A DNA stretch of 36,100 bases from a virus. Where the stretch lies: positions 1-36,100 of IMG/VR virus record IMGVR_UViG_3300031600_000013; one strand, given 5' to 3'. The translations under genes were made by a program, and so were the position numbers. Below the pieces are notes generated by a model. The model saw only the letters and a program-made list of their open reading frames with translations. It was not told the DNA's origin and made no database searches. Every line of letters begins with the position of its first letter. The first letter of the stretch is position 1. Of this stretch, positions 5,155-15,510 are shown one piece after another.

Positions 5155-5164
5155 TAGACATCAT
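5155..5164 (+). promoter_or_regulatory. TAGACATCAT promoter-like element
   Basis: TAGACATCAT, 54 bases upstream of the GTG at 5218 and 19 bases after the preceding terminator motif. The same decamer occurs at 21110 and 35401, with variants at 12429 and 15467, each between a terminator or gene end and the next gene. The position suggests a phage promoter, probably read by the phage's own RNA polymerase. This is inferred from recurrence only. Confidence 0.5.
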
Positions 5165-7151: not shown

Positions 7152-7418
7152 ATGAGCCATGTCACACTACGCACCCGCACCGCCGATGGAGTGATGGTGG
7201 GTTCGTACATCACCGCCGACCCAGATTCTCTAATGAATCTAGAAGACAAACACAAAGCCTTGCGCGCACTGGAGCAGGCGATTCATTCCAGTGAACTTAT
7301 GGTCAATCCGTTTATGGTGACAGAGGCGTCTGTGGCCTGCAATAACCTCACGTACCGTTACACGATTCGTAAGCACCCTGCCTTAGCTACTAGGGATACG
7401 AAACAGCCTCAGTCTTGA
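7152..7418 (+). CDS. small unknown protein, 88 aa
   Basis: ATG at 7152 preceded by AAAAGGAAAC, giving a good Shine-Dalgarno. The product is small, soluble and slightly acidic in the middle (LMNLEDKHKALRALEQAI), with strands at each end. It shows no motif that I can name. It is the last clear gene before the gene-poor stretch 7419-7985. Confidence 0.55.
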   Translation: MSHVTLRTRTADGVMVGSYITADPDSLMNLEDKHKALRALEQAIHSSELMVNPFMVTEASVACNNLTYRYTIRKHPALATRDTKQPQS

Positions 7419-7607
7419 AACACAGACTACGTTCTTATCGTGATCACACCCTGGGGTGGCCGGACCAGCCCCCTGCTCTGTGGTGCAGCATTAAAAGCCC
7501 TGTGTGCTCGGGGCGGTGTGTTGCACGTGACAAGCGACTAGAACATTGGCGAGGTCCACGTTACACCCCCACACTGGTGGGGGTAGACATCGTAAGAGGA
7601 AACTTTT
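7419..7607 (+). ncRNA. candidate structured RNA upstream of PLMP-domain gene
   Basis: This 189-base gap has no convincing gene and several hairpins. 7453-7459 pairs with 7465-7472 (with one mismatch or bulge) around a CCGGA loop. 7565-7572 pairs perfectly with 7577-7584 (8 bp, loop ACTG). GTGC/GCAC segments between them can also pair. It sits directly before a PLMP/RRXRR-domain ORF. In IscB/IsrB loci the guide-bearing omega RNA (also called HEARO RNA) lies at this position. Position and structure fit; I cannot confirm that it matches the omega RNA covariance model. Confidence 0.35.
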
Positions 7608-7969
7608 ATGTCTAATTATGCATTTGTGCTGGATACCAATAGGCGTCCTTTGGCGCCGTGCCATCCAGCTCGGGCCAGAGAGTTACTCAGTAAGGGAAAG
7701 GCATCACTACCGGTAGGGTAGCGATTAGGAGCAGCGGCAGCTTTACGATAGGGGACACAGTAACCCATTATCGCCATCTAGAAAAACTGTTTTGTTCCGA
7801 CGGTTATCAGTACCAAACAACCCAGCTGGCAAAAGTGATATTAACGACCGACACACGCATTAAAAAGATGTACCGGTCTTTAATAAAGACTTCCTACCGG
7901 GTGGTCACCAAAGAACTAAAGAAAAAAGTGACCCTCTATACCCTGCAAACGAACCTAAATAACTACTAA
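7608..7969 (+). pseudogene. IscB-type PLMP/RRXRR-domain gene, split in two frames
   Basis: Shine-Dalgarno AAGAGGA at 7594-7600 precedes ATG 7608. Residues 5-33 match the RRXRR (PLMP) domain that begins IscB, IsrB and IshB proteins: VLDTNRRPLAPCHPARAREL then LSKGKASL. The frame stops at TAG 7719-7721 after 37 residues. The -1 frame is open from 7694 to TAA 7967-7969 without a standard start near its beginning, and it encodes about 80 plausible residues (FTIGDTV..., an HTH-like TTQLAKVILTTDTRIKKM, a basic C-terminus). GGGAAAG at 7694-7700 is a canonical -1 slippery heptamer in the right phase, which would give a 120-aa fusion. Alternatively, a GGTAG tandem duplication (7712-7721) broke a 118-aa gene. 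RuvC and HNH domains are absent. Confidence 0.7.
7929..7966 (+). repeat. direct repeat copy 1, leader/promoter-like
   Basis: This segment recurs at 9397-9435 with about three differences: ACCCTCTAYACCC, then TGCAAACGAACC and TAAATAACTAC. Copy 1 lies 20 bases before the HTH gene at 7986, copy 2 lies 20 bases before the DHH gene at 9455. The last part (CCTAAATAAYTAC) also occurs at 12413, upstream of the element at 12429. This suggests a duplicated promoter or leader. Confidence 0.6.
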
Positions 7970-7985
7970 CAAGGACTAACCCCAC

Positions 7986-8306
7986 ATGAGGAAACTGTCC
8001 GATGAACAAGAATGGTCATTGTTGGAGCGCTATCATCTGAATAAGATGTTCACCGCGAAGGCGCGTGAGATCACCGACGACTACATCGCCGTGACCGTCG
8101 GGATTAGCCCCACAGACGTGCTGTGCATCTTACGTGGCAGGACCCACAAAGCCTTGCAAAAATACCGTGAGAAAGTCATGACGCTGGCGGCTAAGCGAGA
8201 TCACAACAAATCTCACGCCGCCCAGCACAGCGACAAAGTATTGATGGCAGAGTTCAACTTGACGGAAAAAGAAATGAAGAGCATCCTCAGAACACGTCGA
8301 GGATAA
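7986..8306 (+). CDS. small helix-turn-helix-like protein, 106 aa
   Basis: ATG at 7986 with AAGGA at 7971-7975. The protein is short, basic and fully helical. Two segments look like HTH units: DDYIAVTVGISPTDVLCILRG (about residues 31-51) and HSDKVLMAEFNLTEKEMKSIL (about 80-101). Each has a short turn between a helix and a probable recognition helix. It is probably a DNA-binding regulator, but the target is unknown. The gene is preceded by a leader repeat shared with the DHH gene and followed at once by a hairpin with the TATGCCG motif, so it is probably transcribed alone. Confidence 0.6.
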   Translation: MRKLSDEQEWSLLERYHLNKMFTAKAREITDDYIAVTVGISPTDVLCILRGRTHKALQKYREKVMTLAAKRDHNKSHAAQHSDKVLMAEFNLTEKEMKSILRTRRG

Positions 8307-9396: not shown

Positions 9397-9435
9397 TGAC
9401 CCTCTACACCCATGCAAACGAACCTAAATAACTAC
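9397..9435 (+). repeat. direct repeat copy 2, leader/promoter-like
   Basis: Second copy of the segment at 7929-7966, located between the thymidylate synthase stop and the DHH gene. Differences are few (one transition, one inserted base in the middle). The copies share CCTAAATAACTAC and the A-rich stretch that follows. It is probably a duplicated promoter or leader. Confidence 0.6.
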
Positions 9436-9454
9436 CAAAAAAGGAAATACTAAC

Positions 9455-10588
9455 ATGATACACCACATCAGCCACATCGATCTAGACGGCTACACCTGTA
9501 GCCACATCGTGGCCTCGGTACACACCGACCCAGACACCCTGCGTCAAACCAACGTCGATTACGGCGAGCTCACAGAGCATTTGATCACGGTGTTGTCCGC
9601 GGTCGATCCGGTCAACCCATTGGAAGAGCTTTTGATCACGGATCTCAATTTAAAGACAGACGCCGTGGATGCGATACTGCAGTACCGTGACCGCTATCGG
9701 TTACTGACGCTGATCGATCACCATCAAAACGATGAACGTGAGATGGATCGGCTGGACGAAAACGTCAACTGCCGCCTGGTGCTGGATCCTGCGTACAGTG
9801 CGACGTGGCTAACAGCCCATCACCTGTGTGATGAGCAGTATCTGACGGGATCGTTTCTAGCGCTAGTGGAAATCGTCGATGCGTACGACATGTATCAGGT
9901 CGGGGATACCGCACGATTCCCTTTAGGGTACGTGTTAAACGAGTGGTTCATGGACGTCATTAATCAAGCCCGACCCGTGTTAGCCCCAGAAGGCGTACGT
10001 ATACTGTCTAACGAGCTGTTGTCGTTCTACAAAGATATATCCTTAGAGCTTCAAATCAAGTACCCTGCGGCGGAGGTGTGTGATCTTTTGTACCAGCTTT
10101 TGATGGAGTCGATTCACGTTGATATTCCGGAACGCTTTCGCGATATTGGGCTGATCGACCCGGACCGTTACCACGCCACCGATAACGCGGTTCACTGCAG
10201 TGCTTACCCACAGCGTGTGGCAGCGTTACTGGCAGCGGCGGGGATAGGACCCCACGGCATTGCTCAGGATTATCTGATCGAGATCGACGACGTCACCCTA
10301 CTGATGTCTCCCGTAAAGCTTCCTCGTGGCGTCTTGTTTCAGCTGATGTACACGTTGGGAGTCGTTGACATCCACGTGATGATGACCGACTCGGTAAAAG
10401 GGCGCGTCGAGTTCCGGCAGCACAAACTCAAACCGCACGTGGATCTGTCTCAGGTCGCTCACTTGTGGGGCGGTGGGGGGCACATCGGTGCAGCCGGGTG
10501 CCACACGCAACAAGGCTGGACGTCGTTTGAGCCTGAAGTAATAGAAATCCTAACCAAACAACTCCGGAAATTGACCCCCGATGAGTAA
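9455..10588 (+). CDS. DHH-family phosphoesterase, 377 aa
   Basis: The motifs of the DHH/DHHA1 superfamily are present in order: HIDLDG (7-12, metal ligands Asp9 and Asp11), TDL (62-64), DHH (88-90) and the C-terminal DHHA1 motif GGGGHIGAAG (339-348), which binds substrate phosphate. Members include NrnA-type nanoRNases/pAp phosphatases, c-di-AMP phosphodiesterases and RecJ. With no OB fold or CBS/PAS domain, the size best fits a NrnA-like enzyme that acts on short oligonucleotides or pAp. A role in nucleotide recycling, next to thymidylate synthase, is inferred. The stop overlaps the start of the next gene. Confidence 0.9.
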   Translation: MIHHISHIDLDGYTCSHIVASVHTDPDTLRQTNVDYGELTEHLITVLSAVDPVNPLEELLITDLNLKTDAVDAILQYRDRYRLLTLIDHHQNDEREMDRLDENVNCRLVLDPAYSATWLTAHHLCDEQYLTGSFLALVEIVDAYDMYQVGDTARFPLGYVLNEWFMDVINQARPVLAPEGVRILSNELLSFYKDISLELQIKYPAAEVCDLLYQLLMESIHVDIPERFRDIGLIDPDRYHATDNAVHCSAYPQRVAALLAAAGIGPHGIAQDYLIEIDDVTLLMSPVKLPRGVLFQLMYTLGVVDIHVMMTDSVKGRVEFRQHKLKPHVDLSQVAHLWGGGGHIGAAGCHTQQGWTSFEPEVIEILTKQLRKLTPDE

Positions 10589-12428: not shown

Positions 12429-12480
12429 TAGACATTATCTTATTGCATCGTAATACCCCGTACTTTAGTGCGGGGAGTTT
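12429..12480 (+). repeat. leader module A: promoter-like element plus CCCCGTAC hairpin
   Basis: It runs TAGACATTAT (12429-12438), CTTATTG, CCGTAATACC-like sequence and a hairpin with stem 12456-12463/12468-12475 and TTTA loop, followed by AGTTTCAA. Related copies lie at 14617, 15412 and 15467. It precedes the small ORF at 12563. It could be a promoter with a 5' hairpin, or a remnant of a TnpB-type guide RNA end. Confidence 0.6.
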
Positions 12481-12562
12481 CAATAGAAGCCGTCGGCCAT
12501 CTGGACGAGACTAACTTCGACGAGTTGAACGACTGACCCACCTGTAAAAAAAGGATCTGCCC
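12477..12562 (+). other. untranslated leader with a possible gene fragment
   Basis: After hairpin A the frame that reads EAVGHLDETNFDEL and ends with a TGA at 12535-12537 looks protein-like but has no clear start. It is likely a remnant of a gene end, or chance. The rest is leader sequence to the ORF at 12563, and it shares CACCTGT with the region after hairpin C. Confidence 0.3.
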
Positions 12563-14616: not shown

Positions 14617-14655
14617 CTTATCTTATTGCACCGTAATACCCTGTACTTAGGAGTA
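14617..14655 (+). repeat. leader module B upstream of SSB gene
   Basis: It contains TTATCTTATTG, CACCGTAATACC and a short GTAC/GTAC hairpin whose loop contains the TAGGAG ribosome site of the gene at 14660. It resembles modules A and D but the stem is shortened and the hairpin encloses the Shine-Dalgarno, which could control translation. Confidence 0.55.
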
Positions 14656-15397: not shown

Positions 15398-15411
15398 AAA
15401 CCCTAAGAGTA

Positions 15412-15439
15412 CCCCGTACTTTAGTACGGGGAGTTTCAA
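15412..15439 (+). repeat. CCCCGTAC hairpin with AGTTTCAA (module C)
   Basis: Perfect 8-bp stem 15412-15419/15424-15431 with TTTA loop, followed by AGTTTCAA (15432-15439). Identical in design to hairpin A, but without the promoter-like start. The sequence after it (CCACCTGTGAAC) resembles the end of the leader after hairpin A. Confidence 0.65.
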
Positions 15440-15466
15440 GCCACCTGTGAACTAAACGTCTGTAAG

Positions 15467-15510
15467 TATACATTATCTTACTGCACCGTAATACCTCGTA
15501 CTTCAGTACG
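15467..15510 (+). repeat. leader module D
   Basis: Starts with TATACATTAT, then CTTACTG, CACCGTAATACC and a 5-bp CGTAC hairpin (15497-15501/15506-15510). It lies just upstream of the gene at 15543. It shares about 27 bases with modules A and B, so it is part of the same dispersed family. Confidence 0.6.

Follow-up and report, generated by a model that had tools for sequence, protein, structure and literature searches.

Within the window, the 36,100-nucleotide stretch of IMG/VR virus record IMGVR_UViG_3300031600_000013 analysed here, an 88-aa open reading frame (ORF 7152; 7152..7418, + strand) without an assigned family is followed by a 189-nt gap (7419-7607) and then by a start codon at 7608 that opens a short stretch of IscB similarity. 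The initial annotation had described two hairpins in this gap, both of which are present in the sequence, and had proposed that the gap holds an omega RNA or HEARO-like RNA. That assignment is upheld by the Rfam covariance model for HEARO (RF02033), which matches the + strand at 7365-7564 with 96.7 bits (E 8.4e-19; gathering score 83 bits) over the full model (positions 1-211), but the start has to be moved, as the RNA begins 54 nt upstream of the gap, at 7365. This position lies inside ORF 7152, so that the RNA overlaps the last 17 codons of that frame. The match is the only one to HEARO in the 36.1-kb contig. The model scan had been proposed together with a search for covarying stems in relatives, and the latter likewise turned out positive, with strong covariation among 23 sequences; the structured region at 7365-7564 is a real HEARO/omega RNA.

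Folding energy is a weak proof of structure here (-70.9 kcal/mol for 7419-7607, z -1.47, with 15 of 200 shuffles folding as well, which is unremarkable), and the covariance model was used instead. The left end of the scaffold forms an S1-type stem-loop (7366..7402, + strand) in which TTCGTA (7366-7371) pairs with TACGAA (7397-7402). MAFFT misaligned this stem, which was therefore read directly from the window sequence; a perfect 6-bp stem in register arose in 127 of 20000 shuffles. Relative to the common stem, five positions are changed on both sides with pairing kept. Of the two hairpins described initially, the first (7453-7459/7465-7472) is an SL4-type stem, and the second, read from the sequence as the 8-bp terminal hairpin ACCCCCAC/GTGGGGGT (7565-7572/7577-7584, + strand), stands at the position of SL7, the role of which is described in PMC9581776. 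A nexus pseudoknot (7462..7557, + strand) joins GGACC (7462-7466) to GGTCC (7553-7557), and the corresponding helix 6 covaries in relatives. Altogether about 43 of 48 pairs are preserved in the window (37 of 41 outside P1 and, read directly from the sequence, 6 of 7 in P1), as is its own nexus pseudoknot. Across the 23 sequences, the core structure with the nexus pseudoknot gives 93.3% paired cells against 69.1% in shuffled alignments and roughly 35-40% in slid controls, changes on both sides occur in 34 of 43 pairs, and the covariation score is 0.663 against 0.203 (0 of 500 shuffles reached any of these measures); the tested structure was derived from the same 23 sequences, a bias in its favour, and the gap to the shuffles is very large. 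Swapping the partners of the pseudoknot loops likewise worsened the fit (0 of 300 permutations as good). With known HEARO (RF02033)/IscB omega RNAs the window RNA thus shares the full-model match, the core stems, the nexus pseudoknot and a terminal hairpin that precedes the start codon of IscB, and it differs from them in its lower score, in a left end that reads ATTCGTA rather than GTCA, GTAA or ATCA, and in having no intact IscB downstream.

The frame opened at 7608 (7608..7721, + strand) runs for 37 codons to a TAG, and 34 of these match the N-terminus of IscB (PF14239, 34.5 bits; NF040563, 36 bits; 73% identity over 30 aa to the IscB of another viral locus, L073). It had been supposed at the outset that the protein was reduced to its PLMP domain. 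The PLMP domain of DtIsrB comprises residues 1-59 (PMC9581776), so the 34-residue stub amounts to about half a domain, and behind it, in another frame, sequence comparison identifies a C-terminal IscB remnant, TGRVAIRSSGSFTIGDTVTHYRHLEKLFCSDGYQY (7709..7813, + strand). We accordingly rejected a minimal PLMP-only protein in favour of an out-of-frame internal deletion; measured on relatives, about 345 codons covering RuvC, the bridge helix and HNH are missing between stub and remnant. No single frame of the locus contains the PLMP domain together with RuvC, bridge helix, HNH and TAM-interacting parts, and no intact IscB was seen elsewhere in the 36.1-kb contig, itself a phage fragment. The broader expectation that a HEARO/omega RNA is kept beside a broken IscB gene is nevertheless borne out by the full-model RNA match and the IscB remnants downstream of it.

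Comparison of 30 IscB loci with a HEARO indicates where such elements begin and end. Divergence of their flanks sets in exactly at position 1 of the HEARO model. Many of their right ends consist of NTGA behind a hairpin, a type of right end that was confirmed when a deletion derivative was set against intact copies. In DtIsrB a 20-nt guide lies 5' of the scaffold and the TAM is NTGA (PMC9581776). By analogy, the window guide is predicted to be the 16-20 nt directly 5' of the scaffold (about 7345..7364, + strand), which fall wholly within ORF 7152. This frame has 71 codons up to 7364, its last 17 being read from the left end of the RNA, and the element appears to be inserted in its 3' part. No right-end hairpin is recognisable in the window element; besides the left-end stem, kept with changed sequence, the element ends comprise two right-junction candidates on the + strand, a GTGA at 7835..7838 that follows GCAAAA and resembles the NTGA of intact elements, and an alternative GTGA at 7928-7931 read from the sequence. 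After either of them an open frame in phase with ORF 7152 continues to the TAA at 7966, suggesting that the original gene continued there and that 7839..7966 (+ strand) may be its former 3' end. A family search and a single-sequence search of viral contigs returned neither a family nor a relative for ORF 7152, and an empty site was found neither by protein search, which had no positive control, nor by a guide-plus-TAM pattern.

A survey of viral contigs with a DNA motif for this HEARO type yielded 74 stretches. A full or nearly full IscB is present at about 34 of these loci, the RNAs of which were mostly not rescored with Rfam. Among about 41 scorable HEARO loci, seven at which the HEARO was confirmed lack an intact IscB (L066, L094, L100, L102, L106, L116 and L120). 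Orphan RNAs are thus not rare among viral HEARO loci as sampled by RNA motif. RNA scores span the same range in both groups (116-166.5 bits at the seven loci, 118-177.5 bits at the scored intact ones), and since the survey was seeded by an RNA motif, preferential retention of the RNA lies beyond its reach. Four of the seven loci share with the window an omega RNA, a short N-terminal IscB stub and a deleted middle, the stubs measuring about 12 codons in L106, L116 and L066 and about 96 in L100 against 34 in the window. L106 is an internal deletion of an L125-type element with an almost identical right end, and where examined these four loci keep a clear right-end hairpin, whereas the window has none. 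At a further locus (L071, 12786-14046) IscB similarity is split at residue 165/166 and is about 80% identical to L004; this is probably an iscB disrupted by a frameshift, the HEARO motif of which is retained.

Taken together, the locus is very probably an IscB (HEARO) element, its iscB internally deleted, that sits within the 3' portion of a phage gene, and its most likely state is that of an orphan guide RNA. The RNA family, its structure and covariation, and both protein remnants come directly from tool results. In the sequence of events that we propose, an IscB element would have inserted into the 3' part of the gene and a later internal deletion would have removed about 345 codons of iscB, leaving a structurally intact omega RNA together with the 34-residue stub and, in a different frame, the C-terminal remnant, but no right-end hairpin that can be recognised. 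The guide (about 7345-7364) would have been copied from the insertion site, and an IscB of matching type supplied in trans would then aim at the same gene, beside an NTGA, in genomes that lack the insertion. Cutting of insertion-free alleles would favour the element-bearing copy, a homing or gene-drive effect like that reported for the TnpB of IS200/605 elements (PMC11870625). As in that case, a guide taken from the insertion site would target uninterrupted alleles for cutting, but the TnpB systems have an autonomous nuclease, TnpB rather than IscB, and the window has only the RNA. With the middle of iscB gone, the omega RNA could act only in trans, with an IscB from elsewhere, and without any IscB protein it would be inert.

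Whether the RNA does anything today divides the remaining explanations. We give about even odds to a pure relic, in which the good state of the RNA reflects nothing more than a recent deletion, and RNA and remnants do nothing. Since the protein remnants are about as well preserved as the RNA, the intactness of the RNA requires no selection and is by itself no proof of function; in addition, of the viral loci that exceed the gathering score the window has the weakest HEARO match (96.7 bits, against 104.7-177.5 bits for the others), and no right-end hairpin can be recognised. The intact nexus pseudoknot argues against simple decay, as does the left-end stem with its five two-sided changes, which may however predate the deletion.

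A standalone omega RNA that functions by using an IscB encoded elsewhere in the phage, by a co-infecting phage or by the host has a smaller though substantial chance of being correct. Standalone omega RNAs that function with IscB have been reported (cited in PMC9581776), and the window RNA resembles them in that no intact effector, here IscB, lies in cis, and differs in its phage context and in the stub and C-terminal remnant that mark an internal deletion. It is a further example of the known class of standalone omega RNAs, and the phage group that carries it is unusual. Orphan HEAROs occur beside intact IscB loci on two other viral contigs, G001 (six HEARO copies, two without IscB) and G003 (four copies, one without IscB), the former being a natural test case. 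Set against this, no IscB was seen for the window phage, whose contig is a fragment. Should such RNAs work in trans, they would amount to miniature homing elements that consist of the guide alone and are carried by phages; the wider proposition that phages repeatedly carry RNA-only IscB derivatives which borrow the IscB of a host or co-infecting phage to cut rival insertion-free alleles, and that the jumbo-phage locus is one such non-autonomous RNA-guided homing element, we regard as unlikely. At one orphan locus of G001 (L219/L120, 151340-151549) the start codon behind the HEARO is followed, in place of iscB, by what seems by eye to be a TnpB-type element and by an ORF of 387 aa, and at L222 of the same contig (131324-131548; HEARO 153 bits) the downstream sequence has no iscB similarity.

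It is improbable that the RNA has been domesticated for a new task other than cutting, for instance to regulate genes, and the initial annotation's suggestion of such a use by the phage found no support in the analysis. The precedent would be TldR, a group of phage-encoded RNA-guided repressors derived from TnpB (PMC13418256); TldR keeps a full RNA-binding protein with a dead nuclease, and at the window locus no effector protein is left. Least probable of all is that the deletion is an assembly error of the metagenome contig, which comes without reads, as the independent contigs with L106, L116, L066 and L100 have the same architecture.

The orphan element represents a guide RNA without its nuclease in a giant phage. 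Judged from its proteins, the contig represents part of the genome of a jumbo phage of the phiKZ type, from a deep lineage: the major capsid protein is 34% identical to the capsid of Xanthomonas phage LucasX, and PHROGs matches include phrog_3213 for a DnaB-like helicase and phrog_3004 for a virion protein. A capsid alignment search of IMG/VR recovered 62 loci, all at about 35% identity or less, while a single-sequence search of viral contigs returned no relatives of the capsid protein or of ORFs 6487, 7152 and 7986. No close relative phage was found, nor any DNA similarity to the element in known phages. Scans of 10 named jumbo phages and of a further 22 jumbo-phage records from IMG/VR detected no HEARO either, an absence that is only indicative because neither scan had a working positive control.

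Several repeats were observed in the contig. A direct repeat of about 50-60 bp (7930-7989 and 9397-9458), each copy of which runs from TGACCCTCTA to an ATGA start codon, flanks ORF 7986 and the thymidylate synthase gene and looks like a gene-cassette duplication. The motif TAGACATC/T occurs on the + strand at 5155, 7584, 12429, 21110 and 35401, mostly in intergenic positions with extended similarity, and may have a regulatory role in the phage; its occurrence at 7584 may be due to chance. A further intergenic hairpin, TACCCCGTACTTTAGTGCGGGGAG, is repeated together with a leader at 12435-12483, 14618-14648 and 15410-15510.
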